Assembly (NCBI GenBank): GCA_028823235.1 | Contig: JAPKBW010000012.1 | Location: 1-64,000, forward strand | Source: Longimicrobiales bacterium | GTDB lineage: Bacteria; Gemmatimonadota; Gemmatimonadetes; Longimicrobiales; Gaopeijiaceae | Length of the DNA stretch: 64,000 nt | Direction of reading: 5' to 3' | Shown: in pieces, positions 2,896 through 45,004 of the stretch | Numbering within the stretch: position 1 is the first letter of the stretch | Layout: each line of letters begins with the position of its first letter | The notes under the pieces: model-generated | The model's database searches: none | What the model saw: only the letters and a program-made list of their open reading frames with translations | Told to the model about the DNA's origin: nothing | Program-made: the position numbers and the translations under genes

Positions 2896-3512
2896 ATGAG
2901 CGATTCACTTGAGGGCATCACATGGTTTCGCGGCTCCTCCGTTCGAATCAGAAGGAAGGGCTTGGAGACCCACATGGACCCACATGGCGTGGACAAGGAT
3001 TCCGAGGCGGATTTCGCGCTCCTCACGTATCTGCAAAACGACAATTTTTCGGAAGACGACATCGCCCGGGTACGAGGCGAGAAAACGGCACTGATCGCGT
3101 CCACCTCCATGAAAAAACAGCTGGACAGCGCATATCACTTCGTGCGCCCCGGGGACACGCTCCAACTCGACGGCTTCGATATTCTCGCGGTCCCCGCTCA
3201 CAACGTGGACAAGAAGCACCACGCGCCGGAGCAGGGTTGGCTCGGCTACGTCTTTACGATCCCCGGCACACCTACTATCACGCCGGTGACACCGCCTTCC
3301 TCCCGTCGATGTTCGGGATCCGATGTGATGTCGGGTTTCTCCCCGTCGGTGGTCACTACACCACGGGTGTTGAGGATGAGGCCCGGGCCGGTGAGCCCTG
3401 CGGAGTCGAGGTGATCCTGCCGATCCATTGGGAGGAGCCGCAGGGCACGGAGAAAGACATCGCTCATCTGGGAGAACTATTCTCCCGAGACGTGCTCGAG
3501 AGAGAGGCCTGA
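2896..3512 (+). pseudogene. Decayed UlaG-like MBL-fold metal-dependent hydrolase
   Basis: Reads as a metallo-beta-lactamase-fold hydrolase of the UlaG-like type: an ITWF...SSVRI start, then SEDDIARV, LDGFDILAVPAHN, and finally TYYHAGDTAF and LPVGGHYT. The second half (from about 3270) is in a different frame from the first; one base appears lost between GYVFTIPGT and TYYHAGDT. The zinc motif expected as THLHNDH reads TYLQNDN, so all three histidines are substituted, and the early GH of the family reads RG. Later metal positions (HAGDT, GGHYT) persist. Probably a pseudogene; a sequencing indel could explain the frameshift but not the histidine losses. Confidence 0.75.
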
Positions 3513-3604
3513 CCCTCGCTTCAACGAGCTTCGGCGCCGACATTCTCGGCCCCTCTCAATTCTTGGTGTCAGGGTGATGTCCACAACCAAGCACAGGTGA
3601 CCCG

Positions 3605-5278
3605 ATGCGTCCCATCATACCTATCATCACTCTCGCCCTCGCGGCCCAGCCACTGACCGCCCAAATGACTTCCCGGATGACAGGGCCGGTAACGAGCCCC
3701 GCGACCTATTCAGGTCGCTCGACTGTCTACGCGCCAAACGGCGTGGCGGCGACCAGTCAGCCTCTCGCGACAACGACAGCTCTCGAAATACTCAACAGCG
3801 GCGGAAACGCGATCGACGCAGCTGTCGCTGCGGCCGCAGTGCTGAACGTCACCGAGCCACACATGACAGGTATGGGCGGAGACATGTTCGCGATTCTCTG
3901 GTCAGCCTCGGAGGGTCGGCTGGTTGGTCTTGATGCGAGCGGAAGGTCGGGCTCAAAGACCGACGTCGCAGCACTGGTAGCAGAGGGCGCAGAGCGGGTC
4001 CCTGGAAACGGTGCGCGTTCGGTTACTGTGCCCGGCGCGCTGTCAGGATGGAGCGCCTTGGTTGAAACATACGGCAACTTGACGCTGGCCGAGGTGCTCG
4101 CGCCTGCGATCCGCCTCGCCGAAGAGGGGTTCCCCGTGTCACCGATCATTGCTCAGGACTGGGCCGGATCAGTGAACGGTCTCCGGCGTAACCCGGGTGC
4201 GGCCGCAACGTTTCTGATCAACGACGAGGCGCCCAAAGCGGGTGACTGGTTCAGCAATCCAGACCTGTCGCGAACGTTTCAGCGGGTCGCAGACCAGGGA
4301 CCCGAGAGCTTCTATGGTGGAGAACTGGGCCAGGAGTTCATCGATGGTCTCGACGAACTCGGTGGCTACCTGACGATCGAAGACCTGGCAAACCACGAAA
4401 TCCGCTGGGTCGAGCCGATGAGCGTCGACTACAAGGAGTACACGCTCTACGAACTACCCCCAGCAGGTCAGGGCATCGCAGCGCTCCAGATGCTGAAGAT
4501 GCTGGAGGGCGTGGATTTCGCTTCAATGGAACACAACTCAGCTGAGTACCTCCACGTGTTGATCGAGGCGAAGAAGCTGGCCCATGCGGACCTCGCCCGG
4601 TATGTGGCCGACCCCGATCACATGCAGGTGCAGCCCGAGACTCTCCTCGATCCAGACTACCTCACGGGTCGTGCCGGATTGATCGATCACACGCGGGCAG
4701 CGGACAGGCCCGATCCCGGTCGCCTAGTGACGGACTCGGAGACGATTTACCTGACCGTCGCTGATCGTGACGGCAACATGATCTCCTTCATCAACTCGAT
4801 CTACGGGTACTTCGGCTCCCGAGTCGTCATCCCGGGAACGGGCGTGGTGCTCCAGAACCGGGGGTCGGGATTTACCATGGAGGAGGGCCATCCAAATCAG
4901 ATCGCCGCGAACAAGCGACCCTTCCATACCATTATCCCTGCCTTCGCTACGAAGGATGGATCGCCCTGGCTCTCATTTGGCGTCATGGGCGGCTCCATGC
5001 AGCCGCAGGGTCATGTCCAGGTCATGCTCAACCTGATCGAGTACGGAATGGACCCGCAGGAGGCGATCGACGCGGCGCGATTCCGCCACTTCAGCGGGAC
5101 CACTGTTGCGATCGAGAATCTCGACCCGGAGGTCGGAAGCGCGCTCGAAGCGATGGGCCACGAACTGCGAAGCCCCGACGGAGTCGCGTTTGGAGGTGGG
5201 CAAGCGATCCTTAAATTATCTCGAGGATGGGCCGCCGCCTCCGATCCACGAAAAGACGGTATGGCAGCTGGAAATTGA
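3605..5278 (+). CDS. ggt: Gamma-glutamyltransferase, secreted
   Basis: 557 residues. Hydrolyses or transfers the gamma-glutamyl group of glutathione and related amides in the periplasm. A signal peptide is visible (MRPIIPIITLALAAQPLTAQ). The N-terminal part carries GGNAIDAAVAAAAVLNVTEPH and the GMGGDMFA loop; the autocatalytic threonine starting the small subunit is about T380 in SETIYLTVAD, followed by FGSRVVIPGTGVVLQNRGSGF. The threonine sits in a TIY context rather than the TTH of E. coli Ggt, a variant I associate with the YwrD/GgtA-type branch. Length is typical. A NUDIX gene follows after seven bases, so the two are probably cotranscribed. Confidence 0.93.
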   Translation: MRPIIPIITLALAAQPLTAQMTSRMTGPVTSPATYSGRSTVYAPNGVAATSQPLATTTALEILNSGGNAIDAAVAAAAVLNVTEPHMTGMGGDMFAILWSASEGRLVGLDASGRSGSKTDVAALVAEGAERVPGNGARSVTVPGALSGWSALVETYGNLTLAEVLAPAIRLAEEGFPVSPIIAQDWAGSVNGLRRNPGAAATFLINDEAPKAGDWFSNPDLSRTFQRVADQGPESFYGGELGQEFIDGLDELGGYLTIEDLANHEIRWVEPMSVDYKEYTLYELPPAGQGIAALQMLKMLEGVDFASMEHNSAEYLHVLIEAKKLAHADLARYVADPDHMQVQPETLLDPDYLTGRAGLIDHTRAADRPDPGRLVTDSETIYLTVADRDGNMISFINSIYGYFGSRVVIPGTGVVLQNRGSGFTMEEGHPNQIAANKRPFHTIIPAFATKDGSPWLSFGVMGGSMQPQGHVQVMLNLIEYGMDPQEAIDAARFRHFSGTTVAIENLDPEVGSALEAMGHELRSPDGVAFGGGQAILKLSRGWAAASDPRKDGMAAGN

Positions 5279-5285
5279 AGAACCT

Positions 5286-6134
5286 GTGAGCGATCCCGAT
5301 TCGGTAATCCCTTTCGACCGTCTACCCGACAACTTCGCGGCGAGTATCGGGAACCCGTCTGGGGTGCCGGCTGCACCGAGGCCAGCTGCCACCATCGTGC
5401 TTCTACGCGATGCACCCACAGGGATGGAGCTTCTTCTTATGCGGAGAAGCAGGAGCGCCGGCTTCGTCCCAGGCGCCTACGTCTTTCCGGGTGGCCGAGT
5501 CGACGGAACCGATGCGATGCCCGCGGTCATCGAGCGACTCGACGACCTGACGGTCGACGGCGCTGAGTCGAGGCTTGTCTTGCCCAGGGCTGAGCCTCCT
5601 GCGATCGCATATTATCTCGCGGCGCTGAGGGAGGCCTTCGAAGAGACTGGCATCCTTGTGGGGATCCGCTCCGATGGATCCGCCCCTCCGACAGCCGCGG
5701 AGGACGCCAATGTAGATCGAGTACGGAACCAGCTCATGAACGATGACATCTCGTTCGCAGACGCAATCGCACGACTTCAGTGCCGTATTGCCGGTGATGC
5801 GATCGAATACATCGCTCACTGGATCACACCCCTGCCCGAGCCGCGACGCTACGACACACGGTTCTTCGCGGCAAAAGTGCGTTCTGGTGCCACGCCGATC
5901 GTCGACCCACGAGAGATGACGGACGCAGTCTGGGTCGGGCCGCAGGAAGCCCTCGACCGCTGTGACCTTGGCGAGCTGCCGATGGTTTTTCCGACCATCA
6001 AGACAATTGAGCAACTCACTCTGTACGAGAGTGCGGACGAGGCCCTCGACGGCTTTGCCGGCAAGCCAGTGCGGACAATCCTGCCGACCCTCGTCATCAC
6101 ATCGACTGGTGTTGGCCTCCAGATCGAGGAGTAG
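5286..6134 (+). CDS. NUDIX hydrolase, NUDT19/CoA-diphosphatase-like
   Basis: About 282 residues from a GTG start just after the ggt stop; the reading frame extends further upstream but only as overlap with ggt. Hydrolyses nucleoside diphosphate-linked substrates. FVPGAYVFPGGRVD is followed about 55 residues later by the NUDIX helix ALREAFEETGI, the split arrangement of the NUDT7/NUDT19 group. The C-terminal part (HWITPLPEPRRYDTRFF) also fits that group, whose known members cleave acyl-CoA or CoA. Substrate here is inferred. A G+C-poor T-run at 6171-6178 lies inside a GGGCAAG/CTTGCCC inverted repeat 40 bases downstream and may end the transcript. Confidence 0.85.
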   Translation: MSDPDSVIPFDRLPDNFAASIGNPSGVPAAPRPAATIVLLRDAPTGMELLLMRRSRSAGFVPGAYVFPGGRVDGTDAMPAVIERLDDLTVDGAESRLVLPRAEPPAIAYYLAALREAFEETGILVGIRSDGSAPPTAAEDANVDRVRNQLMNDDISFADAIARLQCRIAGDAIEYIAHWITPLPEPRRYDTRFFAAKVRSGATPIVDPREMTDAVWVGPQEALDRCDLGELPMVFPTIKTIEQLTLYESADEALDGFAGKPVRTILPTLVITSTGVGLQIEE

Positions 6135-29714: not shown

Positions 29715-31640
29715 CTATCCGCCCACCACTAACGCCACCACCGCGGCACCGAAGGGGTGCTGGCGCGTGAGGACAATCATGTGCATATCACCGAGGTTGA
29801 GACTGCGGCGCTGAGGTTCAGAGAGGAGGACGGTCCCCTCGGACGTGAGGGCTCCCGGTCGCGACAGGAGGTGCACGATCTGCCAGTCCCCGTCTCCTTG
29901 AGGATATCGGAGAGCGACACCGGTGACATCGCCAGCCGCCACACCACTAATGGCCAGCGCGTATTCCAGGGCCCCGAGGTCCGAAGCAAATACGACCTCG
30001 GCGTTTAGGGTGACCAAATTGCCCGATGCAACGATGCCTTCCGGCACACCCGGGAGCGCGTTGACGCTTATGGCACCTGGCCGCTTTTCATTCACGAGAG
30101 GTGGTGTGCTCCAGGGCTCTCGCCGATGCTCTGTCCCCTGCTCGAAAGCGTATCCGATAGCCACCAGTCGAGTGTCTTCCAGAGTCCGCCCAATCATTTC
30201 CATTCCAATCGGCAGTCCCGACTCGGTGAAGCCCGCCTGAATGCTGAGTGAGGGCAATCCAGTGTTCGCACTAAGGCTGCAACTCGACCCGCGCTGAGGC
30301 TCTCCGAGCAGAGCGGGCACCGTGCGGACGGTTGGGAAGACGAACGCATCGAGGGAGTGCTCGTTCATCATCCCTTCGACCGCCGCGCGGAGAGGTCCGC
30401 GCTTCGCAAGCGCCGCACGGTACTCTTGTGAGTCTCGTTCCTGGCCAGAATCACGCGCTCGCATCCGCGGCATTAGCGCCTCGTGAATCAGGCCCCGATC
30501 GATCATCTCGGTGAGAGAGGAAACGGGCGCATCCGGTTGAGCCTCGAGGTAGTCGATAAGATCCCACTTGAACTCGTAATTGATGACACCGGACCCGGTA
30601 ATGAGCTCATCGAGTGTCTCCAATTCCACCGTTACGGTATCCGCGCCCAGTTCCACCATTCGCTCGATCGCCGCTCTTACCAGTCGGGCGGCCTCGACCT
30701 CTTCAGGACCTGAGCCAAAATATTGCTCAAAAATCCCGATGCGGGCCCCTCGCAGCGCTCTCTCGTCGAGGGCGCCCGTGAACCGAGGAAGGTCCCTGCC
30801 ACGCAGGATGTCGGTTGCCAGATCGCCGGGATCCGGTCCAACCGTGGCATCAAGCGCGATCGCGAGATCCCGAACGGTGCGCGCGAGTGGACCTCCCACG
30901 TCCTGAGTGTGGGATAGCGGGATGATGCCGTTAATGCTGGACAGGCCTTTCGTGGGGCGCAGCCCCACCAGGTCGTTCTGCGCAGCGGGAATCCGAATTG
31001 AGCCACACGTGTCGCTTCCCCACCCAACCGCGGCGAAGCTCGCGGCGATGGCCGCGCCCGTCCCACCGCTCGATCCACCCGGATTGCGGTCGAGAGCGTA
31101 GGGGTTGAGTGTCTGGCCGCCCATCGACGAAATGGTCGTGATGCCCGAAGCCAGCTCGTGCAGGTTCGCCTTCCCAACGATGACCGCGCCGGCTTCACGC
31201 AGCCTAGCAACCTGAAAGGCATCCTCCGCCGCCATGTTCCATGCCAGCGCAAGCGTCCCGGCCGTCGTCGGCATGTCTGTAGTGTTGTAGTTGTCTTTCA
31301 GGATGACCGGAATCCCGTGCATCGGACCACGCGGACCGGTTGTGGCTCTCTCCCGATCGAGAGCTGCTGCCTCTGCGACGGCACCCCCGTTCAGCCAGAC
31401 GATCGCGTTGATCGCGGGGCCAGACTGATCGTACGCGGCGATACGATCGAGGTACTGCTGTGTGATTCCGGCTGAAGTCGCCCGGCCGGAGGCCATCGCA
31501 GCCTGAAGCTCCAGGATCGTCGCACCAGTTACGTCGATCTGAGCCTGCGCCCCGGACGGGGAGACAGCCACGGCTGCGAGGAACGCAAACCACACCAAGC
31601 CCGTTGGAACGGAGCACTTCACATTGTAAAACATCGGCAC
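29715..31640 (-). CDS. Secreted amidase with C-terminal CHRD-like domain
   Basis: 641 residues, longer than the usual 450-500. Signal peptide (FAFLAAVAVSPSGAQA). Amidase-signature core: catalytic Lys in PVILKDNYNT, cis-Ser in NPGGSSGGTGAA, nucleophilic Ser in GSDTCGSIRIPA. The last 110 residues (FASDLGALEYALAISGVAAG, then VHLLSRPG, and LSEPQRRSLNLGDMHMIVL) look like a CHRD domain, an extracellular beta module. Hydrolyses amides outside the cytoplasm, perhaps peptidyl amides. Follows DUF5916 by 25 bases. Confidence 0.88.
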   Translation of the reverse strand: MPMFYNVKCSVPTGLVWFAFLAAVAVSPSGAQAQIDVTGATILELQAAMASGRATSAGITQQYLDRIAAYDQSGPAINAIVWLNGGAVAEAAALDRERATTGPRGPMHGIPVILKDNYNTTDMPTTAGTLALAWNMAAEDAFQVARLREAGAVIVGKANLHELASGITTISSMGGQTLNPYALDRNPGGSSGGTGAAIAASFAAVGWGSDTCGSIRIPAAQNDLVGLRPTKGLSSINGIIPLSHTQDVGGPLARTVRDLAIALDATVGPDPGDLATDILRGRDLPRFTGALDERALRGARIGIFEQYFGSGPEEVEAARLVRAAIERMVELGADTVTVELETLDELITGSGVINYEFKWDLIDYLEAQPDAPVSSLTEMIDRGLIHEALMPRMRARDSGQERDSQEYRAALAKRGPLRAAVEGMMNEHSLDAFVFPTVRTVPALLGEPQRGSSCSLSANTGLPSLSIQAGFTESGLPIGMEMIGRTLEDTRLVAIGYAFEQGTEHRREPWSTPPLVNEKRPGAISVNALPGVPEGIVASGNLVTLNAEVVFASDLGALEYALAISGVAAGDVTGVALRYPQGDGDWQIVHLLSRPGALTSEGTVLLSEPQRRSLNLGDMHMIVLTRQHPFGAAVVALVVGG

Positions 31641-31665: not shown

Positions 31666-34461
31666 CTACAGCCCCAACCAGTAGTTCACCTTGATGATGA
31701 AGCGATTCACCGCCGGTGCGCCGAACAGGGTCCCGATGTCGTCCTCAAAATTGAAATCGCCATTGGAGGCGCTTGCCGCCTGGTTCCGCTGCCAGACAAC
31801 AAAGATGGTGGAACCGGGTCGGTACTCCCATCTAACAACCGCGTTGCCCACGAGCGACTGGACATTGAAATCCCTGTCACCGAACGAATAGTCCGTTTGC
31901 CCATCCCCATCGAAGTCGACGTGCTGGGTTCCGTCGACCTCGCAGATCTCAGTCGAGCACATCACACCGGTCGTCTGCGTAGTCGCAACGCCTGGCTCGA
32001 AGTCGGTAAAGTCGTAGCTCTGGGAGAGCTCAAGCTGCTTGTACTGGGTGTAGTCACCAGAGGAAAGCAGGGGCTGGGCGAAGAGCTGGAGTGACAGGGC
32101 TGGGGTAAAGGTCCACTCCAGTCGTGTCTCCATCGCGACCGTTGTACGGTCGAGATCGGAAAAGAGGTATCGCCGGTCGTAGGTGGGGGCGTACGGCAAC
32201 GTGTTCGTCGACGTGACGTACTGCGCGCTCGCGCTCGCTATTTCGTATCGGGGGTTCAGTCGTAGGGAGACATTGTCGGAGGGGCGGAGATTCATGTCGA
32301 CCCCGATCTGCCGCCTACTTCCGGCACCGATGGCCTCCCAGCTCTGATCAACAGTGAGGCCCGCGTTAAAGGCTTTTCTGCGATCAGAATTGACTTTGAA
32401 GTTCCAGGCTGTTGACGCTGGCCCGACCATCATGGGCCCACCTCGCGTGGCGCGGCGGCTCATCTTCTGAGGCTGGTAGCGGAAGGTTCCACGGATGTTC
32501 CAGTAGTTGAGGAACTGCCCATTTGCGTTGAGCGAGTAGTTCCCGTTGGTCCGGGCATTGTGCCAGGAGTCAATCGACCATGTGTTGTCGAGGGCTTCGT
32601 GACTCCAGTTATGGAAACTGCTAACCGTAAGGTTGTAGTTCCGAAGCAAGCTTCCCGGCTGAATTTCTCGGTAGCCAAAGCGGAAACCACCATCGAGTCG
32701 CTCAGCGTTCGTGGAGAACCCGATGTCATTGACTTCAAAGGCCTTCGAGACCTCGGCGGCCCAAATTGATCCGGTCCAGTGCTGGCCGTTGCGCTTTTCC
32801 AACTGAACGCGCCAGTCGCGGCCAGCCAGAGAGGTGGCGTCCGGATCAAGATTGAAGCGCGTGGCGTCCGGTCGCTGCAGGTAGTGCGTCGAAGCGGTCT
32901 GGACCCTGTACATCGCCTCTTCGGACCCGCGCACGTAGCTCCCTGCAAAGAATGCCCACACGGCCCAGTCGCGGTCGGCCCACTGATGTTCGAAGCGCGC
33001 TCCGACATCAAAGGCGCTCGAACTGAGGTTGTTGAATGAGCCGTCCGAAGGCAGGTCGCGCTTCATAAAGGAGCCAAGGCCACGGAACTGGGTGATCCCT
33101 TCATTGAAGTCTTGGCCAATACTCAGAACACCAAACGTCGTCCGGGGCTCGACCAAGAAGTCACCCTCCGAGCCGTTCTCATAAAGACCCTGCCCGTATT
33201 CTTTACCCGTCACAGCTGCCAAGGCGCCTAGAGAGAGTCCCTCGGACGTCCGACCAGCGAGCTTCGCCGCCCCGAGAATCGTCGCGTTGTCAGGGATGTC
33301 AGAGAACAAGACATCCGATGGCGCGCGTCCGTGAGGCGAACGGCCTATTCGACGGCTGTAGAACAGGGAGTTCTTCCCACCCGAGAGACCGAAGTCAAAG
33401 ACCCGGGCGTCCTCGACGAAGAACGGACGCTGTTCGGGGAAAAAGGTCTCGAACGCCGAGAGGTTGATGACCGCCGGGTCCGCTTCGACCTGGCCGAAAT
33501 CCGGGTTGATGGTTGCGTCGAGGGTGAAGGCCGCTCCAAGGCCGTGGCTCATGTCCACTCCGAAGCGACCGCCGCCCGCAGTACCGTCGAAGAACGGATC
33601 GCCCGGTGTGGCCGGACCATTCGTCACGCTGCTGACCGCATAGGGAAGCAACTCGAGACGTCGGGAGGGACGAGACACCCGGACCTGATCCACGCGACCC
33701 ATCTGACTCACGATCCCACGGCGGGTCCGGGAGATCAGGGAGTAGTAGCTCCGCTCATTCGATGCGATCCGAAGGCGGTGGAAGTTGATGCCCCAGGTCT
33801 GCACATCATCGGACGCTTCGTACCGGATCTGCGACAGTGGAATCCGGATCTCAGCGGTCCAACCCTGCTCATCGACATTCACGGCTGAAGACCAGACCGC
33901 ATTCCACGCTTGGTCCATCTTGTCATCATTATAGAAGTACAGATCGCCCTGCACGTTTGCCGCCGAGACGCGAAAATTATAGCCGGTCAAGCCATCCAGA
34001 TTCGGATCGAGGTGCACGCTGAACTGGTCGTACGTGCCCATGTTGTCACGACGGGTCATCCTGCGATCGATCTGATCGGGATTCGAGTCCCACATCCGGG
34101 CGGCGATCCAGATCGCATCCTCGCCGAAGAGAACTCGCACCTCAGTGTCATTCTCAGCCGGACCACCCTCAACGGGCTCCCGTTGAGTGAAGCCGTTGAA
34201 GACCCGTGCGTTCTCCCAGTCTGCCTCGTTCAGGATGCCATCGATCTCGATGTCCTCCAGTTCCGCGGTGGAGTCAAGAATCGAGGGAAGGGCAGAGGAG
34301 ACTCGGTCACCCGAGCGCCTCTGAGAAGGGTTCACCAACACCGTCGAAGCGAGGCCGCTCGCACCCGGCTTCTCCTGCGCGGACAGGGGCGCCGAAATGA
34401 TCAAGAGGCCGAGACATCCGGCAACGAATATGAGGTAACGATTAGTCACGAACGCAAACAT
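31666..34461 (-). CDS. DUF5916 outer-membrane protein with CBM9-like N-terminus
   Basis: 931 residues with signal peptide (LGLLIISAPLSAQ). Residues about 65-240 are a carbohydrate-binding family-9-like domain (EIDGILNEADWENARVF, IWIAARMWDSNPDQIDRR, GWTAEIRIPLSQIRY). The rest is the DUF5916 barrel-like part: PYAVSSVTNG, FFPEQRPFFVEDARVF, GGKNSLFYSRRIGRSP, and many alternating strands ending in VNRFIIKVNYWLGL, a typical barrel end. Role unknown; abundant in Bacteroidota and Gemmatimonadota. Probably leads the operon with amidase, lipoprotein and aminotransferase. Confidence 0.88.
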   Translation of the reverse strand: MFAFVTNRYLIFVAGCLGLLIISAPLSAQEKPGASGLASTVLVNPSQRRSGDRVSSALPSILDSTAELEDIEIDGILNEADWENARVFNGFTQREPVEGGPAENDTEVRVLFGEDAIWIAARMWDSNPDQIDRRMTRRDNMGTYDQFSVHLDPNLDGLTGYNFRVSAANVQGDLYFYNDDKMDQAWNAVWSSAVNVDEQGWTAEIRIPLSQIRYEASDDVQTWGINFHRLRIASNERSYYSLISRTRRGIVSQMGRVDQVRVSRPSRRLELLPYAVSSVTNGPATPGDPFFDGTAGGGRFGVDMSHGLGAAFTLDATINPDFGQVEADPAVINLSAFETFFPEQRPFFVEDARVFDFGLSGGKNSLFYSRRIGRSPHGRAPSDVLFSDIPDNATILGAAKLAGRTSEGLSLGALAAVTGKEYGQGLYENGSEGDFLVEPRTTFGVLSIGQDFNEGITQFRGLGSFMKRDLPSDGSFNNLSSSAFDVGARFEHQWADRDWAVWAFFAGSYVRGSEEAMYRVQTASTHYLQRPDATRFNLDPDATSLAGRDWRVQLEKRNGQHWTGSIWAAEVSKAFEVNDIGFSTNAERLDGGFRFGYREIQPGSLLRNYNLTVSSFHNWSHEALDNTWSIDSWHNARTNGNYSLNANGQFLNYWNIRGTFRYQPQKMSRRATRGGPMMVGPASTAWNFKVNSDRRKAFNAGLTVDQSWEAIGAGSRRQIGVDMNLRPSDNVSLRLNPRYEIASASAQYVTSTNTLPYAPTYDRRYLFSDLDRTTVAMETRLEWTFTPALSLQLFAQPLLSSGDYTQYKQLELSQSYDFTDFEPGVATTQTTGVMCSTEICEVDGTQHVDFDGDGQTDYSFGDRDFNVQSLVGNAVVRWEYRPGSTIFVVWQRNQAASASNGDFNFEDDIGTLFGAPAVNRFIIKVNYWLGL

Positions 34462-34521: not shown

Positions 34522-37425
34522 TTATCGCTGCGAGAGCCAACGCACAGCGGCCGCATGAAGCGGAATCGGAGCACTGATAAGACCTTCCAGATCGATCTGC
34601 TTCGCCATGTCGTGGACCTTTTCCAAGGATACACGATCCGTGTCAAAGATGTTGAGCAGTGTCAGGACCACCTCATCGTCCAGCGCCTCCATTGAGATCA
34701 CCCAGTTCATGACCGCGAGCGACTGAACGACCGCCTCGACTCCTGGGTAGGCGCCCGCCGGGATCTCTCCGGGGACATAATACGGGTGTTCAACGAGCAT
34801 TGCGGCAAGAACGTCGTCCTCAATCGAGAGCAGCCGCATGCTCCCGGTCGTCGTCGCCTCGAGAACGGAAGAGGCTGGGAACCCGACCGAGATGATCGCC
34901 GCGTCGATTGCACCGTCTCGCAAGGCCGCAGAGGATTCCGCAAAGGAAAGAAAGCGCGGTTCGATGTCATCGTAGGTCAGGTCGTGCGCCGACAGCACAT
35001 GCCGCGCCAGCTGCTCTGTCCCACTCCCAGCCGCTCCGACAGACACACGCATCCCGGCGAAGTCGGACACCGTCTGCGCCGACGACGAAGCCGGAACGAT
35101 GATGTGTGTCATGTTCGCATAAAGAGGTGCGATCGCCCGAAGCCCCGAGATCGCCGTTGTGAAATCACCCTCACCCTTCTGTGCCTGATAGACCGTCGAC
35201 GCGATCGCCATGGCGAGATCCATCTGACCTGACCCGAGCCGGTTCACGTTCTCCACCGAACCGCCGCTCACCTCGGCGGTGAACTGGCGATCGGGATCAG
35301 CGATCGACAAGCGGCTCGCGATCGCGCCGCCCAGCGGATAATAGATTCCGCCGGTTCCGGCCGTGCCCAGCGACAGGAACTCCTGTGGACCACCTCCACG
35401 CGTGGGGGCAGCAGCGACCTCAGGGGCGGAACCGTCTCTGGTCGAGCCAGTGGGTGGGTTCAGCATAAAGAAGCTCGCAACTACGCCGGCAGAAAGAGCC
35501 CCTCCAACCCAGCGAGTCCACGTCGCTACCTGGCCTTTCTCCGTCCGAAAGAAGACGAGCCCTACGCCGATGAGTCCAGCCACATCAGTCACGAAACCCG
35601 GATAGACGAGAAGGGTGGCTGCCATCACCGCGAGAGCTCGTTCCCAGACCAACAAATGGGTCCGCGCGAACCCCACCCCTCCCGCTGCCAACGTGGTGAC
35701 TCCGATCACAGCCGTCACGGTCGCAAGGAGGATACCAAGGAGCGAGCCGTCCAGGAGAAGCTCCGGCCCGTAGACGAACATGAAGGGCACGATGAACCCG
35801 GCGCCGGCGAGCATCGCTGCATAGAGTGCCGTCTTGATTGGTGGCGACCCTGCAATTCCTGCCGCAGCAAAAGCTGCGAGCGAAACCGGGGGCGTCACGT
35901 TCGAGATGCAGCCGAAGTAGAAAATGAAGAGGTGCGCAGAGAGAAGGGGCACGCCGAGATCGACCAGCGCGGGCGCGCCGAGCGCGGCCAACACCACATA
36001 TGCAGCAGTCGTGGGCAGTCCCATGCCTAGTACGACGGACCCGAGCGCGGTGAGAAGGAGTGCGGGGAAGAGTTGGCCGCCCGACAATGTGATGATGAGT
36101 TCGGACATTCTGAGTCCGATCCCCGTCAGCGAAGCCACACCCACAACGATCCCTGCAGCGGCACACGCAGCAGCCACCTGGACAGCGCCCCGCCCCGCCC
36201 GCTCCATGATCTCCTGCATCTGCGTCAGCGACGGACGGGTCGACGGCCTGACGGCAGCCATGATGAGCGCGGACGTGACACCCCAGAACGCGGCACGCAT
36301 AGGTGAGCGCCCCATCCCGAGCAGCAGCACGATGATGATCAGGGGCAACAGCAGGTGGAGGCGATCCACGATCGACTCCGACGCATCATCCTCCGCAGGC
36401 TCGATACCCATGAGGCCAGCACGGAAGTGGATCGCTGCCAGAAGAGCCGTATAGTAGAGGATGGCCGGAATGATCGCGGCCGCTGCGACCTGCAGATACG
36501 GAATGTTCGTCCAGGTCGCGAGGATGAACGCCCCTGCACCCATCACAGGCGGCATGAGCTGGCCGCCCGTGCTGGCCGCCGCCTCGATAGCACCCGCAAA
36601 GAACGGTCGGAAGCCCGCCCGCTTCATGAGCGGGATCGTAAACGTTCCGGTCGTCACAACGTTGGCTACGGCACTCCCGGACAACGAACCCATGAAGGCG
36701 CTCGCGACCGCGGCCGTCTTGGCGGGCCCACCACGGGTCTTCCCTGCAATCCGGTTGGCCATGGCGATGAGCAATGCGCCACCACCAGCCGTCTCGAGTA
36801 CCGCCCCGAAAAGAACGAAGAGGTACACAAAGTCTGCAGACACCTGGAGAGGAATTCCCCAAATGCCCTCGGTAGAGAGGTACAGATGCTCGATCAGTCG
36901 GACTGCCCCATAGCCCTTGTGAGCCAAGAACCCCGGCAGGTGTGGCCCCGCGAATGCGTAGCCGAGAGCAAGCAAACACACCGTGATGAGGCCCCAGCCG
37001 GTCGCCCGGCGCGCGAGCTCCAGCACGAGAAGAATCGCTATCGCACCCATCCACAGATCGGTGGACGTCGGACTCCCCGAGCGCCCAACAAGCTCCTGAT
37101 TCTCGAGTGCCAGGTAGGCACAGACCATGATCGCCAGACCGACCAGCACCCAGCTCCATCCGAGCTGAAGTCGCTCGACGGTCGTCAGCGGCAGCTTACC
37201 CCCTGTCTCCGCATCCGGCCGGGTCTCTTCGGACCGGCCCCGCCTTATTTTTCGCTGCACGCCAACGCCGAGAAAGCCGAGCGTGGCCATCAGAGCGAGA
37301 TGCACAGGGCGCTGGATCAGCGCCGTAAACGGCGAGAAGCCCGCCGCATACATATGGAAGATTGCGGCTAATCCGGACGCACACGCGATTACTGCTGCGG
37401 TGATTTTTCCACGCTGATCATTCAC
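34522..37425 (-). CDS. TRAP transporter fused permease and TAXI receptor
   Basis: 967 residues from GTG at 37425 (longer frames overlap the Yip1 gene). Residues about 1-640 are a 4TM/12TM fused TRAP permease: VFLFG-type segment VYLFVLFGAVLETAGGGALL, GSLSGSAVANVVTTGTFTIP, ASTGGQLMPPVMGAGAF, GMGLPTTAAYVVLAALGAPA and CISNVTPPVSLAAFA. After a last helix near residue 660 comes a complete TAXI-type solute receptor (LGTAGTGGIYYPLGGAIAS, VSGGSVENVNRLGSGQMDLA, RVSVGAAGSGTEQLA, VHDMAKQIDLEGLISAP). TAXI receptors are normally a separate secreted protein. The final helix would place it in the periplasm. Substrate unknown. Confidence 0.88.
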   Translation of the reverse strand: MNDQRGKITAAVIACASGLAAIFHMYAAGFSPFTALIQRPVHLALMATLGFLGVGVQRKIRRGRSEETRPDAETGGKLPLTTVERLQLGWSWVLVGLAIMVCAYLALENQELVGRSGSPTSTDLWMGAIAILLVLELARRATGWGLITVCLLALGYAFAGPHLPGFLAHKGYGAVRLIEHLYLSTEGIWGIPLQVSADFVYLFVLFGAVLETAGGGALLIAMANRIAGKTRGGPAKTAAVASAFMGSLSGSAVANVVTTGTFTIPLMKRAGFRPFFAGAIEAAASTGGQLMPPVMGAGAFILATWTNIPYLQVAAAAIIPAILYYTALLAAIHFRAGLMGIEPAEDDASESIVDRLHLLLPLIIIVLLLGMGRSPMRAAFWGVTSALIMAAVRPSTRPSLTQMQEIMERAGRGAVQVAAACAAAGIVVGVASLTGIGLRMSELIITLSGGQLFPALLLTALGSVVLGMGLPTTAAYVVLAALGAPALVDLGVPLLSAHLFIFYFGCISNVTPPVSLAAFAAAGIAGSPPIKTALYAAMLAGAGFIVPFMFVYGPELLLDGSLLGILLATVTAVIGVTTLAAGGVGFARTHLLVWERALAVMAATLLVYPGFVTDVAGLIGVGLVFFRTEKGQVATWTRWVGGALSAGVVASFFMLNPPTGSTRDGSAPEVAAAPTRGGGPQEFLSLGTAGTGGIYYPLGGAIASRLSIADPDRQFTAEVSGGSVENVNRLGSGQMDLAMAIASTVYQAQKGEGDFTTAISGLRAIAPLYANMTHIIVPASSSAQTVSDFAGMRVSVGAAGSGTEQLARHVLSAHDLTYDDIEPRFLSFAESSAALRDGAIDAAIISVGFPASSVLEATTTGSMRLLSIEDDVLAAMLVEHPYYVPGEIPAGAYPGVEAVVQSLAVMNWVISMEALDDEVVLTLLNIFDTDRVSLEKVHDMAKQIDLEGLISAPIPLHAAAVRWLSQR

Positions 37426-37435
37426 GACGCCGACC

Positions 37436-38170
37436 CTATATGAAGTTTGCCATGATCGCTGACACACCTACCAGCAACACAAGCAGTATCGTGGCGGCGC
37501 TCGCGAAGCTGCGTCGGCGATCGATGGCGTGAATGCCCTGAGCGATAACGAGCGAGGCCCATATCTGCGTGAGGTCGAGAAGTCGGAACAGGTTGCTGAA
37601 GTAGCCGTCCGGCAGGAAGGGGAGCAAGCTCCCAAGGTTGAGCGTCAGCTGCACATCACCTTGGGAAATGCGTAGCGGAGTGACCACCAAGCCGAACAGA
37701 ACGGCAATGAACCACGCATGAGATATCACCGCAAGGTACTGCTTATACGTGCCTTCATCGCCGAGGATAAACGCGAAGACCACTGTGTAGACACCCGCGA
37801 ATACGAAGGACATGACCGCGGTCATGATCACCGAGGTGGCCGGAATCACGATGCGCATCAAGGTGAGTGCAGCCTGCGGCATCTCTGGCATCTCTCGCCC
37901 GGCGTCGAGGGCGGCCTGGCGCTGGGCCTCCAGGATGATGTCCACAGGTACCAGCGCCATGGACAGGCCAACTACGAACGCCCCGACCAGCAGGGCTCCG
38001 ATCCACTTGGGCTCCTTGGCCAGCTGCTGCATGAGGTTGGCGGGGCTGACAAAAACGGATGCCAGCCGAGCGGGCAGACTCGGAAGGGTTGATGCGGGAG
38101 CAGCGTCGGCCTCGGTAGCAGAATGGGATTCAACCCGACCACCTGTGGCGTCTTCGATTCTCTCATCCAT
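37436..38170 (-). CDS. Yip1-domain membrane protein
   Basis: 244 residues. A soluble N-terminus rich in Ala/Pro/Ser, then PARLASVFVSPANLMQQLAK and five helices, with GTYKQYLAVISHAWFIAVLF typical of bacterial Yip1 domains. Role in bacteria is unknown. Its ATG shares a base with the preceding lipoprotein TAA and it precedes the TRAP gene by ten bases, so the three are probably cotranscribed. Confidence 0.83.
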   Translation of the reverse strand: MDERIEDATGGRVESHSATEADAAPASTLPSLPARLASVFVSPANLMQQLAKEPKWIGALLVGAFVVGLSMALVPVDIILEAQRQAALDAGREMPEMPQAALTLMRIVIPATSVIMTAVMSFVFAGVYTVVFAFILGDEGTYKQYLAVISHAWFIAVLFGLVVTPLRISQGDVQLTLNLGSLLPFLPDGYFSNLFRLLDLTQIWASLVIAQGIHAIDRRRSFASAATILLVLLVGVSAIMANFI

Positions 38171-39003
38171 TACATGCCCTCCAATCTCGTGTGCTGCGTG
38201 GAAACAACATCCATCGGAATCGCGGTTGGCATGATCGGCAGACTTAAGGTGCCTGATCCGGTCGCTACTCGATGGTGCTCGAACATGATGGACTCGTTGT
38301 GATCCCAGAGGACATACCCGAGTACTTCGGCTTCGGACTCCTGGTGAATGTCCATCCCTCCCATCTCAAGATCCTGCTCACTGGATGACGTGCCCGAGAA
38401 AGAGATTCTCAGGAGCGCACGCCCGGCGACTACGGTATCTCCCTCCACGACATACGTGAGGACGGAAGTCTCGGAACGCATGCCGGGGCCATCCTCGCCC
38501 TCGAAAGAAACGGTATCGACCCAGCTGTCGCCCATCATCGCGCCTATGCCGGGAAGGCCTGGGAAAAACATGTAGGCCAGGCTCAGGCCGGAGACCATCT
38601 GTGACGCCTCATCCGTGACCGCCGGCCTCTCTCCGATACTCACGGTGTTGCCGGTCCGTCCCATCACGAACGTCAGGTCGCCTTGCACCCCACTCTCATC
38701 GAGCTGAATCGGCGCGCCCACCGGCTGGGTAATCGAGGCCTCTAGGTCCTGGAGAGACATCGTCACCCCCACGCCGTCCGGAACCGAAGAGAACCCCACC
38801 GCGTAGGTGGCAACTCCAGACTGGTTCACTTCCATGCTCTGTCCCATGATCGATACGGAGACTGCCGTCGTGTCCCCGTGCTGGTATGTGAGCTTATTCG
38901 TGGCCTGACTTCCGTATGCCAGGGTGGGGGGACCCGGAGGGCCACCGCCGCAAGCGGCAAGAGAAAAGCAGAGCAGAAGAGCTGTAAAAATTCGGGTCTT
39001 CAT
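38170..39003 (-). CDS. Lipoprotein of unknown function
   Basis: 277 residues. ATG at 39003 has GGAG upstream. Lipoprotein signal LLLCFSLAACGGG. The mature part is beta-rich with repeated polar strands (TLAYGSQATNKLTYQHGDTT, MSLQDLEASITQPVGAPIQL, GMRSETSVLTYVVEGDTVVA). No family recognised; the strand pattern resembles lipocalin-like or DUF6263-like lipoproteins, but this is weak. Leads Yip1 and the TRAP-TAXI gene, so it may be a periplasmic companion of that transporter. Confidence 0.7.
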   Translation of the reverse strand: MKTRIFTALLLCFSLAACGGGPPGPPTLAYGSQATNKLTYQHGDTTAVSVSIMGQSMEVNQSGVATYAVGFSSVPDGVGVTMSLQDLEASITQPVGAPIQLDESGVQGDLTFVMGRTGNTVSIGERPAVTDEASQMVSGLSLAYMFFPGLPGIGAMMGDSWVDTVSFEGEDGPGMRSETSVLTYVVEGDTVVAGRALLRISFSGTSSSEQDLEMGGMDIHQESEAEVLGYVLWDHNESIMFEHHRVATGSGTLSLPIMPTAIPMDVVSTQHTRLEGM

Positions 39004-39778: not shown

Positions 39779-39970
39779 GCACCGGGCACACTAGGAACCT
39801 CTCGCGGCGCCGTAGCGGCGGGTCCCGGCGCGGGCCGCGCTTGCCTGACGTCGGACCTCTCTGATGTGTCAGCCTACCTGCTTGGAGCCGCCACCGGCTC
39901 CTGAGCGCGGGACAAAGGTGCCGTCCCAGACAGCCATCGCAGGGCCCAGCTCGGATACCGATCGTCGTGC

Positions 39971-40526
39971 ATGGCTCGAACCTCACGCATCATGGGACAG
40001 TTACTCATCGACGACGCCGGGGTTAATCCCCATGACGTCGAGACCGCACTGTCATCCGGCCGTCAGCCTGGCGAGCGCCTCGGCGACACGCTAGTCCGGA
40101 TGGGGGTCACAACACGTGATGCTGTGGCTCGCGCCCTCGCGTGCCAGTTGGGGCTCGACTTCACGGCGGGACCGCTGGAGCCGACCGAGACTGCGCGGAA
40201 GGCAATCTTCCCGAGTCTCATTAAGGCCCACCATCTTGTTCGCCTCGATATCGACAGCCGCCGGATACGGATTGCTCTCTTTGACCCGCTGAATGTCCGC
40301 GCCATCGATGACGTGCCGTTTCAGACGGGGTGTAGGGTCGAGTGCCTCGGAGGTCGCTCGCAGCGGCGTCGGCGTGTTGGAAGAACTCCTGGCCGATGAC
40401 CGCATGGTCACAGCTGTCGTCAAGAAGGCCCACTATCAACGACGCTACTTGGCGAGCCTGCGGGAGACCCTTGTTGCTCTGGACTCCTTAGTCGGTGCGC
40501 TTGCCAAGCTTGCAGAAGGTGAATGA
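39971..40526 (+). pseudogene. GspE/PilB N-terminal (MshEN) fragment, frameshifted
   Basis: The first 110 codons match the MshEN domain of type II secretion/type IV pilus ATPases: MGQLLIDDAGV, GERLGDTLVRMGVTTRDAVA, RALACQLGLDF, AIFPSLIKAHHLV and IRIALFDPLNVRAIDDVPFQ. From about 40340 homology moves to another frame (SEVARSGVGVLEELLADD) and ends at TGA 40524-40526. The ATPase core (Walker A and B) is absent. A matching C-terminal fragment is at 43457-43840. Intact ancestors are 550-600 residues. Probably a dead fragment; a frameshift error alone would not restore an ATPase. Confidence 0.72.
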
Positions 40527-40750: not shown

Positions 40751-41779
40751 CTAACGCCGCGCAGACAACAGCAGGGAGAAGCTACCTAGGTCGTAGCGCT
40801 CGATCTCGCCATCGACCTGCCCCGTCAGCCTGCCCTCCCGCAACGCTGTGACCGCCTCGCGTAACTCAACGAGTCGGGATGGATCAACCACAGGAGTATT
40901 GTGCGCCGGGAAGACTCTCGTAAGGCGCGGAACCAGGTCAGCGAGGCGACGGACCGATTGCTCGTACCGCTCAAGATCGGTCTCCGGCGCGAAGAGCCAG
41001 ATCGGGCCTTCGTAGAACGAGTCTCCCGTCCATAGGTACCCGGCGTCGGTATCCAACAGCGCGATGGCGTCTGGCGTATGGCCGGGGATGTGGAGGACTT
41101 CGACCGTACGCCCACCGAGATCCACCCTGTGCCCGTCGCGGCCGACTTCGCTGATCGTCCAGGGTCGGGTGCGGTAACTGTCCTGACTGACTCCGGCGGG
41201 AAGTGGCCCGCACAAAGCTGCTGGCTCCAGCTCTTGTCGGACCTGCGCGTTAGCCAGCCCTTCCGCGCGGGCGCGAGTGAAATCGGTGTCCATCCCGAAG
41301 ATCGTAGAGAACTCGGCATTCCCTCCGATGTGATCGAGGTGTGTGTGCGAGTTGAGCACGATGACGGGTAATTCCGTCAGCTGATCGACGACGTCCGAGA
41401 TGGCAGCGATGCCCATCCCGGTGTCGAAGAGAAGCGCACGCTCGGTACCCAACACCAGGTATGAGATGACCTCTTGCCACTGCTTCGGCTCGTAGATCGC
41501 CAGCACTCCCTCACCTGCTTCCCACACCTCGAACCAATCAGACTCCACCGGCACACGGACCAAATCCGCGTAGGCCGCGCGGGGAAGGGCGGCACACCAA
41601 TCCACCGAGATCGCCTCGTCGGAAGTCTCGCTCACCTCCTCAAGACTTGGCGGACGCTCGCCCGCGCCAAGACACCCGCAAACGGCGAGGCAAATACCGA
41701 GCCCTGACCAGGCGCGAGTCGTGGGCCGGGCCACCGTTGGCGATAGCGGAGCTAGTCCGAGTCTTGATGTGCCAGACAT
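40751..41779 (-). CDS. MBL-fold hydrolase lipoprotein
   Basis: 342 residues. Lipoprotein-type signal ends at LAVCGC. Metal ligands are intact: NSHTHLDH, then HIPGHTPDAI, YLWTGDSF and RVFPAHNTP, giving a dinuclear metallo-beta-lactamase-fold hydrolase. Contrast with the decayed MBL at 2896-3512. Substrate unknown; the closest general class is glyoxalase II/lactonase-like. It precedes nothing in the same direction except the relic and lies 13 bases after the amidohydrolase stop, so the two form an operon. Confidence 0.87.
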   Translation of the reverse strand: MSGTSRLGLAPLSPTVARPTTRAWSGLGICLAVCGCLGAGERPPSLEEVSETSDEAISVDWCAALPRAAYADLVRVPVESDWFEVWEAGEGVLAIYEPKQWQEVISYLVLGTERALLFDTGMGIAAISDVVDQLTELPVIVLNSHTHLDHIGGNAEFSTIFGMDTDFTRARAEGLANAQVRQELEPAALCGPLPAGVSQDSYRTRPWTISEVGRDGHRVDLGGRTVEVLHIPGHTPDAIALLDTDAGYLWTGDSFYEGPIWLFAPETDLERYEQSVRRLADLVPRLTRVFPAHNTPVVDPSRLVELREAVTALREGRLTGQVDGEIERYDLGSFSLLLSARR

Positions 41780-41792
41780 GATATCCCGGGGT

Positions 41793-43340
41793 TCAACGTC
41801 GGTAGTAGCGTGGATCCGTCGGCAACGAGGCCGGGTCGATCACCACCCCGGCCTTCATCACTCTCCAGAGCCTGCGGATGTTGGAGATGTCGGCCAACGG
41901 ATCGGCGTCGAGGATCAGCAGATCTGCGATCTTCCCTGCCTCCACAGTTCCGACGCGGTCCAGGACTCCGGCTGCGGACGCTCCCGTCTTCGTAGCGGCG
42001 ACAATGGCCTCGCTTGGCGTCATTCCGAGTCCGACCAGCCCTTCGATCGCGAGGAGTGTCCCCGTGCCAGGGTCGGCGAAGAACGGCACCGACGCACCCG
42101 CACCGGCCAGTTCCGGAATGCCCGAAGGAGCGTTGTCCGTGGCGATGGCGATTCTGCAGCCACCGCGGATAAGACGATGGTGATTCTCGCGCTCTCCGAG
42201 CACCTGAGCCCGGAGGTCACGGCTAGGGTTCTCCCGCGCCCAGCGCTCGAGCAGTTCCCGGTACTCAGGGACCCGATCGCGGATGTTCCGATAGGGCCAC
42301 ATCTCCGAGATCAGTTCCTCGGGCGAAGGCTCGCCGGCGCTGGCTCCGCTTCCCCTCGCCAGGAAGGCATCCGCCAGTGGGCCCCAGGTCATGTGGGAGA
42401 AGATCGCGCAGACCGTTCCACGCTCCTTAAGTACACGAATCACGTCGTCCGGGATGAGTTGATCCCCGGGACTCCCGGCGTGGGTGATGATGTCCGCGCC
42501 CGCCTCCGCCGCGAGCAACAGCCCCTCCACGCTCGACGTGTGCACATCGACCTTGAGTCCTCGTCGGTGCGCCGTCTCGACGATCGTTCGCTGCACCCTC
42601 GGCGAGAAGACGATATGGACGGGTGGGTCGGTTCCATGCGTCGTTGCAGCGTACTTGATGAAGTCCGGCCCGAGGTCGATGTACCGATCAACTCGTTCTG
42701 CCACCTCAGCCGGCGACCGAGTCGTCAGGTCCACACCGAGGTCTGCCCATCCATGGAAGTATTCGTTGAAGAGCTTCTGTCTATCGGTCAGGGGCCCACG
42801 GTCATGATGTGGGCCACCCCATCCGATGATGTCACCAGCAACCATCAGACGCGGGCCCACGATGTCACCGGATGTAATGAGATCACGAATCTCGAGCAGC
42901 GGGGGCAGCGGCCCGTACGTGTCACGGACCGTGGTAACGCCCGACTTGAGCGCCATCTGTGCAGCTTCGACGGCGTAGCCAAACTCAAGGATCGGGTTCT
43001 CTACTCCATACAGGAGCAGAGGAAAGAGGTCCTCATGAAAGCCCTGGCCCGTGATATGATTGTTGAGGTCGATGAAGCCTGGCACCACGAAGCGGCCCTG
43101 TCCGTCGATGACCTCCGCGCCCACTGGAATCTGCACCTGTGCCCGGGGCCCCACGAGCAGGATCTCTCCATTCTGGACCAGGACAGTCAGATCGCGAAGT
43201 GGCTCGCCACCGTGGCCATCGATCACCGTTGCACCGACTATGGCCGAGGTCTGCGCACCGGCTGGAGTGGGCATCGCCAACGCGAGGCAAACCGCGGCCG
43301 CCGCTACAGCAATGATCCGGAGGCGAGGGCGCGGCTGCAC
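41793..43340 (-). CDS. Secreted metal-dependent amidohydrolase
   Basis: 515 residues from GTG at 43340, chosen because GGAG sits seven bases upstream and the signal peptide (IIAVAAAAVCLALAMPTPAG) then starts correctly. TIM-barrel amidohydrolase: AIVGATVIDGHGGEPLRDLT, metal motif VVPGFIDLNNHI, carboxylated Lys candidate in FIKYAATTHG, His in KVDVHTSS and DIITHAGS, Asp in IAIATDNAPSG. The usual DxHxH reads DLNNH, so the first His is Asn. Such exported enzymes act on imidazolones, peptides or similar amides. Followed by the MBL lipoprotein. Confidence 0.87.
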   Translation of the reverse strand: MQPRPRLRIIAVAAAAVCLALAMPTPAGAQTSAIVGATVIDGHGGEPLRDLTVLVQNGEILLVGPRAQVQIPVGAEVIDGQGRFVVPGFIDLNNHITGQGFHEDLFPLLLYGVENPILEFGYAVEAAQMALKSGVTTVRDTYGPLPPLLEIRDLITSGDIVGPRLMVAGDIIGWGGPHHDRGPLTDRQKLFNEYFHGWADLGVDLTTRSPAEVAERVDRYIDLGPDFIKYAATTHGTDPPVHIVFSPRVQRTIVETAHRRGLKVDVHTSSVEGLLLAAEAGADIITHAGSPGDQLIPDDVIRVLKERGTVCAIFSHMTWGPLADAFLARGSGASAGEPSPEELISEMWPYRNIRDRVPEYRELLERWARENPSRDLRAQVLGERENHHRLIRGGCRIAIATDNAPSGIPELAGAGASVPFFADPGTGTLLAIEGLVGLGMTPSEAIVAATKTGASAAGVLDRVGTVEAGKIADLLILDADPLADISNIRRLWRVMKAGVVIDPASLPTDPRYYRR

Positions 43341-43456
43341 GAAGGAACTCCAATCGAAGTCCAGTCGCACCTGACTAGCGGCTGGGAACGGGCGATGATG
43401 GGATACTGATAATCCAACACAGCGCAAGCTAGCTCCGCCCGGAGGGTGGCGCACTG

Positions 43457-43840
43457 AGGATCCTGGGGGACGGCACCGATGGAAGAACCGGCGTCTACCA
43501 GATGCTCACTATCTCGGATGAAATGAGAGACGAGATATCGGCCGGAGGTTCGGCATCCCGCCTCCGACGCCTGTCCAGGGAAGCCAGCACAGGAACCCTG
43601 GAGTCGGACGCTCGACGTGCAGTAGCGGCGGGGCTCACGCTGCCGCATGAAGTGTCGAGCCTTCTGCTCGCCGAGGCCTCTATCGGACTCCCCTGCTCTC
43701 ACTGCGAGGCGCGCGTCCCTTTCAGCGCGACCGGGTGCCCGCAATGTGGTCTCAGACGAGAGCGCAACTGCGTGTGCGGTCGACCGCTCGACAAGGGTTG
43801 GCGCTACTGCCCCTGGTGTATCCGCCTCGTGAGCAGGTGA
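43457..43840 (+). pseudogene. GspE/PilB C-terminal fragment with zinc ribbon
   Basis: The frame opens at 43433 without a start. From 43472 it reads GTDGRTGVYQMLTISDEMRD, the end of the secretion ATPase (GRTGIYE...TDE type), then SRLSREA-type helix and AAGLTLPHEVSSLLLAEAS. The tail is a double zinc ribbon: CSHCEARVPFSATGCPQCGL, CVCGRPLDKGWRYCPWC. An ATG at 43502 could start a 112-residue protein carrying the zinc ribbon. More likely the orphaned 3' part of the gene whose 5' part is at 39971. Confidence 0.65.
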
Positions 43841-43900: not shown

Positions 43901-45004
43901 TCAGCCGAACGTCACCACCCGGGTGGTGAGCGACTCGATCCACTCTTCGTCGATCTCAACTCCGATACCAGGACCCGTCGGCACCTGCATCATCCCGTCG
44001 GACACCACGAACTCCGGGGACACGATATCACGAGCCCAGTACCGACTGCTAGCAGAGATGTCGCCAGGAAGAGTGAAGCCCGGCAGAGACGCCAGGGCCA
44101 CGTTGTGCGCGCGGCCAATCCCGGACTCGAGCATCCCACCACACCACACTGGGAGTCCGGCGTCCTGCATCATGTCGTGGATGCGCCGGCTAACGCCGAG
44201 TCCGCCGACGCGGCCCGGCTTGATGTTGATAATCCGACAGCTGCCAAGCTCAAGGGCCAGCTCCGTGTCACCCTCCGACTTAATCGACTCATCGAGGCAG
44301 ACGGGTGTCTCGATCTCTTCCTGGAGGCGCGCATGGTGCAGGAAGTCGTCATAGCGGAGAGGCTGCTCGATCATCGTGAGATCAAGTGCGTCGAGTTCAC
44401 GGAGCCGAGCGACGTCAGCAAGCGTGTACGCCGAGTTGGCGTCTGCCATGAACTTTACGTTGGGGTAGGCGGCTCGAAGGCCACCGAGCATCTCGATGTC
44501 GCGACCCGGTTTCACCTTGATCTTTACGCGGGCATAACCGTCTTCGATGAAGCCAGCGACCTGCTCGTGGAGCGCCTCGTCCGTTGACTTCAGCCCCACG
44601 CTCACACCGACCGAGACCGCTTCGCGCGTACCGCCAAGCTTCTGAGACAGCGACACGCCATCGGCTCGCGCGGCCATGTCCCAGCCTGCCATTTCGACCG
44701 CAGCCTTGGTCATTCCGTGCCCTCGAATCCAGGACACAGGATCAAGAATCTCCTCCGGGCCCTCGACTTCACGCCCGACGATATTGGGGAGAATGTAGTC
44801 GGTCAGGATATGCCACGAGGTATCTGTCGTCTCATAGGAGTAAGCCGGGTCCGGGCCCGAGACGCACTCGCTCCAACCAACCAGCCCCTCTCCCTCGAGT
44901 GTGAGGAGGAGGACCCTGCAGTCTTGCATCCCTCCGCTCGAAATCTCGAAAAACTCTTTGAGGCGAAGTGGGATTTCGCGAAGCGTAGCGCGCTCGATTT
45001 TCAT
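43901..45004 (-). CDS. o-Succinylbenzoate synthase / N-succinylamino-acid racemase
   Basis: 367 residues, enolase superfamily (MLE subgroup). Catalytic lysine in ARVKIKVKPG, metal ligands in FMADANSAY, MIEQPLRYDD and CLDESIKS, second lysine in INIKPGRVGG. OSBS and NSAR activities cannot be told apart by sequence. No menaquinone genes (menD, menB, menE) are nearby, while a GNAT transferase and an M20 deacylase are, which favours N-succinylamino-acid racemisation. Start overlaps the upstream flavoprotein stop (ATGA). Confidence 0.88.
   Translation of the reverse strand: MKIERATLREIPLRLKEFFEISSGGMQDCRVLLLTLEGEGLVGWSECVSGPDPAYSYETTDTSWHILTDYILPNIVGREVEGPEEILDPVSWIRGHGMTKAAVEMAGWDMAARADGVSLSQKLGGTREAVSVGVSVGLKSTDEALHEQVAGFIEDGYARVKIKVKPGRDIEMLGGLRAAYPNVKFMADANSAYTLADVARLRELDALDLTMIEQPLRYDDFLHHARLQEEIETPVCLDESIKSEGDTELALELGSCRIINIKPGRVGGLGVSRRIHDMMQDAGLPVWCGGMLESGIGRAHNVALASLPGFTLPGDISASSRYWARDIVSPEFVVSDGMMQVPTGPGIGVEIDEEWIESLTTRVVTFG

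Follow-up and report, generated by a model that had tools for sequence, protein, structure and literature searches.

A large share of the receptors of TAXI-type TRAP transporters are lipoproteins, and there are also reports of TAXI receptors anchored in the membrane (Roden 2023, cited through PMC11574862 and PMC12344293). The TAXI system of P. mirabilis, as relayed from Roden 2023 in the same two papers, has a membrane-held, non-soluble receptor that is a polypeptide of its own, and in VcGluP-VcGluQM the receptor is likewise separate from its QM permease (PMC11574862). Receptors joined to membrane components have also been described. In Lachnospiraceae, TAXI-GltS fusions join an N-terminal TAXI receptor to GltS, an elevator-type secondary transporter (PMC12344293); DctP-DctQ (P-Q) fusions, which are rare among TRAP transporters, join the receptor to a TRAP membrane subunit (PMC8276074); and in those ABC importers whose membrane subunit carries fused receptor domains, the receptor is covalently held at a fixed stoichiometry (PMC8276074). 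In the open-access literature searched, no TRAP fusion of a QM permease with a receptor (Q + M + TAXI) was found.

The window analysed here, a stretch of 64,000 nucleotides from the genome of a Longimicrobiales bacterium, was claimed in an earlier note to encode a TRAP permease and a TAXI receptor as one chain, and this was borne out by matches to TIGR02123 and TIGR02122, both above their cut-offs and in one frame (Table 1). The chain shares its QM permease and TAXI families with VcGluP-VcGluQM (8s4j, Z 35.4), from which it differs in that the receptor sits in the permease chain and that its pocket is without the amino-group ligands Q93 and E125. Unlike the P. mirabilis receptor as the citing papers describe it, the window receptor has an anchor that is continuous with the permease. 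The membrane part is a DctQM permease (DctM/TRAP_fused) and the receptor is C-terminal, which separates the chain from the TAXI-GltS fusions; it comprises Q, M and a TAXI receptor, joined after M, whereas P-Q fusions join only P and Q, and it thus belongs to neither class. The receptor-fused ABC importers differ further in being ATP-driven and of a different fold.

The earlier note put it too strongly in defining TRAP systems by a free periplasmic receptor, as lipoprotein and membrane-anchored TAXI receptors are published, although the covalent one-chain layout is real. Usually the receptor of a TAXI-TRAP system is a polypeptide of its own, either periplasmic or lipid-anchored, though this is arguably no strict definition of such systems; the fused chain lacks this trait, being one open frame in the window genome and in ten others of the genus. 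Membrane tethering is older than the fusion because the receptors of the closest unfused relatives carry a lipobox. As these receptors are already predicted from their sequences to be lipid-anchored, the new element is the permanent 1:1 covalent link between receptor and permease, and the fused chain has known parts, and probably the same transport principle, in a new covalent layout.

Table 1. Features of the fused transporter gene and its neighbours (positions in the window; residues in the 967-residue numbering).
Feature	Position	Strand	Basis
Whole fused TAXI-TRAP gene (permease + receptor)	34522..37425	-	967 aa, open frame; NCBIfam and Pfam; same-genus conservation
Fused DctQ-DctM permease, residues 1-625	35551..37425	-	TIGR02123, PF06808; AlphaFold2 model
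Predicted transmembrane tether, residues 636-654	35464..35520	-	Hydropathy; model helix; no lipobox cysteine
Flexible Pro/Gly/Ala/Ser-rich linker, residues 655-681	35383..35463	-	Low pLDDT; pN/pS 0.57; whole-codon gaps
TAXI-family receptor domain, residues 682-967	34525..35382	-	TIGR02122, PF16868; model alignment
Yip1-domain membrane protein, directly upstream	37436..38170	-	PF04893
Predicted lipoprotein (MKTRIFTALLLCFSLAAC)	38170..39003	-	Sequence
DUF5916 outer-membrane-type protein with CBM9-like domain, next downstream	31666..34461	-	PF19313, PF06452
Exported amidase, next after DUF5916	29715..31640	-	PF01425

The gene is a single open frame of 967 codons on the minus strand, lying between GTG 37425 and its stop at 34522. 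Because an alternative in-frame GTG at 37467, within the end of the Yip1 gene, is also open and would add 14 residues (981 codons), the start at GTG 37425 is only inferred, and the extent given in the earlier note (34522-37425, 967 residues in one chain) holds if translation begins there. Base shuffles of the gene (n = 300) gave a longest stop-free run of 437 codons, and codon-position GC was similar in the permease and receptor domains. In the numbering of the 981-residue form, TIGR02123 (TRAP_fused) was matched over residues 25-642 with 631.7 bits (cut-off 320.65) and TIGR02122 (TRAP_TAXI) over residues 690-978 with 257.3 bits (cut-off 84.35); Pfam matches were to DctM (144-572) and NMT1_3 (700-978). 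The permease part also has C-terminal helices of the sort that TAXI permeases typically carry.

Structure prediction, which had been proposed as a check, was performed with AlphaFold2, for which 47 window and locus proteins were aligned, and both domains of the resulting model (mean pLDDT 87.7, pTM 0.86) match solved TRAP and TAXI structures. The receptor half aligned with the TAXI structures 4ddd (Z 36.2) and 1us4 (Z 36.0) in addition to 8s4j, and the permease half with IseQM (9pym, Z 28.9) and the sialic acid permeases 8y4w (Z 27.5) and 8thj (SiaQM, Z 25.3). With Z scores of 22.9-28.9 against TRAP chains, the permease model was more distant from DASS proteins, for example VcINDY (6okz, Z 18.5); as modelled, it has the elevator-type fold common to DASS transporters. 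The permease was thus classified as a fused DctQM permease of TAXI type by its TIGR02123 score and its fold match to IseQM and SiaQM, and the C-terminal domain as a TAXI-family receptor by its TIGR02122 score and its fold match to 1us4, 8s4j and 4ddd.

As the window genome is a draft assembly of 90 contigs, the fusion might have been created by a sequencing or assembly error that deleted a stop codon, and the earlier note had suggested a read check near position 35400 for a missed stop. The question was answered through orthologues in the genus of the window genome, a genus of uncultured Gemmatimonadota for which 14 genomes, the window genome included, were searchable. The full fused frame is present in 9 of these 14 (G000, G001, G002, G003, G007, G008, G011, G012 and G013), so that eight other genomes keep the frame without a stop, and in two more (G009 and G010) tether and receptor lie in one frame on broken contigs. 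These 9 complete and 2 partial fused genes, from independent assemblies, also provide the confirmation in relatives that the earlier note had called for. The fused orthologues contain no stop in frame despite strong divergence at synonymous positions (pS about 0.64), and every junction gap in the protein alignment is a whole-codon one. The lost-stop artefact was rejected on the strength of this shared, uninterrupted frame, and its probability is considered negligible. Among the same-genus fused genes, pN/pS was 0.164 (permease) and 0.169 (receptor) in the two domains, compared with 0.37 (tether) and 0.57 (linker) at the join. Both halves are therefore kept by selection, at these ratios by purifying selection of similar strength, and the join is loosely constrained, as would be expected for a leash.

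Permease and receptor are separate genes, arranged in the same order, in three further genomes of the genus (G004, G005 and G006) and almost throughout the rest of the family; in most of these unfused relatives the two genes overlap or lie no more than about a hundred bases apart. In a protein tree built jointly from permease and receptor, with the join left out, the nine complete fused same-genus genes formed one supported clade nested inside two-gene relatives, and descent of the fused gene from a two-gene ancestor is shown at the level of sequence. A cysteine stands at the expected lipobox position in each of the 58 unfused receptors examined, in 55 of them by a strict pattern, whereas this cysteine is missing from 11 of 11 fused same-genus genes, whose receptors accordingly do not qualify as lipoprotein TAXI receptors. 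The unfused sisters also have a Shine-Dalgarno-like stretch ahead of the receptor start (for example CACGGAGGTCACATG in G005), which the fused genes have lost. By the same comparison, the fused clade no longer has a ribosome-binding site, a start codon or a lipobox cysteine for the receptor.

What is left at this place in the window gene is a hydrophobic stretch, WVGGALSAGVVASFFML, with basic residues ahead of it. Its hydropathy is moderate (1.28 over residues 639-657), with three K/R residues before and one after, and the AlphaFold2 model has a helix at 636-654, of low confidence (pLDDT about 55). This helix occupies the position of the former lipoprotein signal peptide of the receptor, a cleavable one that gave rise to the tether or was at least replaced by it; it looks as though a lipoprotein signal peptide has been converted to a membrane-crossing leash. 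The linker that follows is about 27 residues long, with pLDDT below 50 at 652-677.

The chain is probably a TAXI-type TRAP importer with receptor and permease in one polypeptide, the receptor being held by a leash in the periplasm, for the ion-driven uptake of an organic acid. In the proposed arrangement, the C-terminus of the permease would lie in the cytoplasm, and the single helix at 636-654, as predicted, would cross the membrane and let the receptor hang in the periplasm, a placement that topology reasoning and the signal peptides of the unfused sisters both favour; the linker would be long enough for docking and undocking. The receptor would bind an organic acid, dock on the permease scaffold and pass the solute across, and elevator-type movement powered by an ion gradient (H+ or Na+) would import it. 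The covalent link would set a fixed 1:1 ratio and a high local concentration, and apo and loaded receptors would therefore need no exchange with a free pool. It is plausible that the fusion would alter the transport mechanism as the earlier note proposed. We further consider it probable, if with somewhat less assurance, that this is a natural single-chain TRAP transporter in which a signal peptide became a membrane-spanning leash, forming a permanent 1:1 unit without receptor exchange, and that such chains arose through at least three in-frame fusions in one bacterial family by two routes, with the lipobox either lost or kept. The occurrence of the fused chain and its unfused sisters in one genus and one gene string offers a natural test of whether the receptor has to come and go. 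Structural studies of the receptor-bound state could also profit from the covalent link, which could further free transport from receptor dosage.

This arrangement presupposes that the chain stays uncut and that the receptor docks in cis, as we infer. It was also possible that the chain is made whole and then cleaved once inserted, with signal peptidase I or some other protease acting on the linker and leaving the receptor free or separately anchored. The apparent origin of the tether in, or its replacement of, a cleavable signal peptide would suit such processing, as would a linker that is disordered and the fastest-varying part of the chain, and three fusions outside the genus (G022, G336 and G039) retain a lipobox cysteine inside the frame. 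However, that cysteine is absent from all 11 fused same-genus genes, in none of which did a simple scan detect an A-x-A motif close behind the helix, and across many species the frame has been kept and the two-gene layout lost; cutting is accordingly regarded as unlikely. A start inside the fused gene could instead yield an additional, separate receptor, so that tethered and free forms coexist. Each fused gene does have in-frame GTG, TTG or ATG codons near the junction, but comparison of the junctions found no in-frame internal start at one position common to all fused genes, and the loss of the Shine-Dalgarno-like sequence of the two-gene sisters also argues against it, making coexistence of both forms quite improbable.

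The last alternative weighed was a sensor or scaffold assembled from TRAP parts, and no importer at all, a reading to which the upstream Yip1 protein and lipoprotein lend some colour. Against this, purifying selection on both domains is strong, both align along their length with solved transporters and receptors, and unfused relatives hold the identical place in the gene string. A sensor or scaffold is thus considered very improbable, and the leash-held importer is retained as the preferred reading.

Further in-frame permease-receptor fusions were found in the same family, in L064 (G022, 949 aa) and L111 (G336, 948 aa), and G039 (L068), from a different family of the order, has permease and receptor in one frame that is cut by the contig end. 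As all three retain the internal lipobox cysteine, cutting by lipoprotein signal peptidase is conceivable here: they may be genuine single chains, or the enzyme may mature them into a permease and a lipoprotein. A single origin of the G022, G336 and genus fusions was rejected (p-AU 1.4e-6) on a quick tree that has long branches for G022 and G336 and does not include G039; by this sequence comparison, the fusion appears to have arisen at least three times within the family of the window genome. The series from a lipid-anchored receptor, through overlapping or adjacent genes, to a fusion with the lipobox kept and then one with the lipobox lost, provides a route for such a change.

A sample of 1,160 genomes from five other phyla was also screened, using PF16868 matches and the length of their open frames. 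In the phyla of G405 (299 genomes), G408 (199) and G409 (218), where the strongest matches were listed and rarity holds for these only, and in those of G406 (247) and G407 (197), the listed matches contained no permease-TAXI frame. Long frames fetched from the other-phylum samples turned out to be shadow frames or tandem TAXI domains, and those in the Gemmatimonadota genomes G034, G146, G119, G277, G202 and G240 were overlapping shadow frames beside a normal separate receptor. L128 (G718) encodes at 2824-5373 an 850-residue chain of two TAXI/NMT1_3 domains in tandem, with one hydrophobic stretch near the N-terminus and another after the second domain, and L114 (G205) and L115 (G331) encode long single chains with tandem TAXI/NMT1_3 domains; none of the three has a TRAP permease within the fetched stretch.

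The receptor pocket was compared with that of VcGluP by alignment to the protein in PMC11574862. The carboxylate-contacting positions Y45, S75 and G156 are retained in the window receptor, whereas of the amino-group contacts, Q93 is replaced by I (the aligned set having mostly L, I or T here) and E125 by N (in 71 of 72 aligned). This pattern is common to fused and unfused members, the aligned receptor pocket being unaltered by the fusion. The conserved residues of the pocket suggest an organic acid, not glutamate, as the ligand, and judged from the aligned positions alone, a carboxylate without a free alpha-amino group is likely. Glutamate, by analogy with TtGluBP and VcGluP, was not favoured, given the replacement of Q93 and E125. 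The receptor of the fused chain was the one TAXI receptor found in the window genome, and the permease is therefore without an alternative partner.

On one strand of the window, the gene order is lipoprotein, Yip1, TRAP, DUF5916 and amidase. The end of the Yip1 gene and GTG 37425 are 10 bases apart, and the stop of the lipoprotein gene overlaps the Yip1 start (TAATG). Yip1 lies upstream of the transporter in every same-genus locus with enough flank and the lipoprotein in most same-genus loci, although the latter was not found in the L026-L028 subgroup when syntenic loci were compared. DUF5916 follows the transporter in L030-L034 and in every same-genus locus whose flank is long enough, and the Yip1-TRAP-DUF5916 string is kept in fused and unfused relatives. 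The suggestion that the lipoprotein, Yip1 and TRAP genes form one putative operon was supported by the conserved gene string (the lipoprotein in most members). The DUF5916 protein is perhaps an outer-membrane partner for the solute of the transporter, and the exported amidase is conserved in several syntenic loci.

Further upstream, an enolase-superfamily protein (43901-45004, minus strand) scored above the o-succinylbenzoate synthase cut-off (TIGR01928). Relatives retain its gene on the upstream side of the transporter genes, and exported amidase and amidohydrolase genes lie nearby in the window. Between the lipoprotein and enolase-superfamily genes are an amidohydrolase gene (41793-43454, minus strand) and a metallo-beta-lactamase-fold gene (40751-41779, minus strand), for both of which the syntenic loci of the examined relatives yielded no counterpart. 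Of a GspE/PilB-type ATPase, just the N- and C-terminal ends are present in the window (39959-40330 and 43472-43837, plus strand), the middle being missing and the metallo-beta-lactamase-fold and amidohydrolase genes lying between the two ends on the opposite strand. The same ATPase is intact in the relative L025, where it comprises 629 aa with a T2SSE domain.
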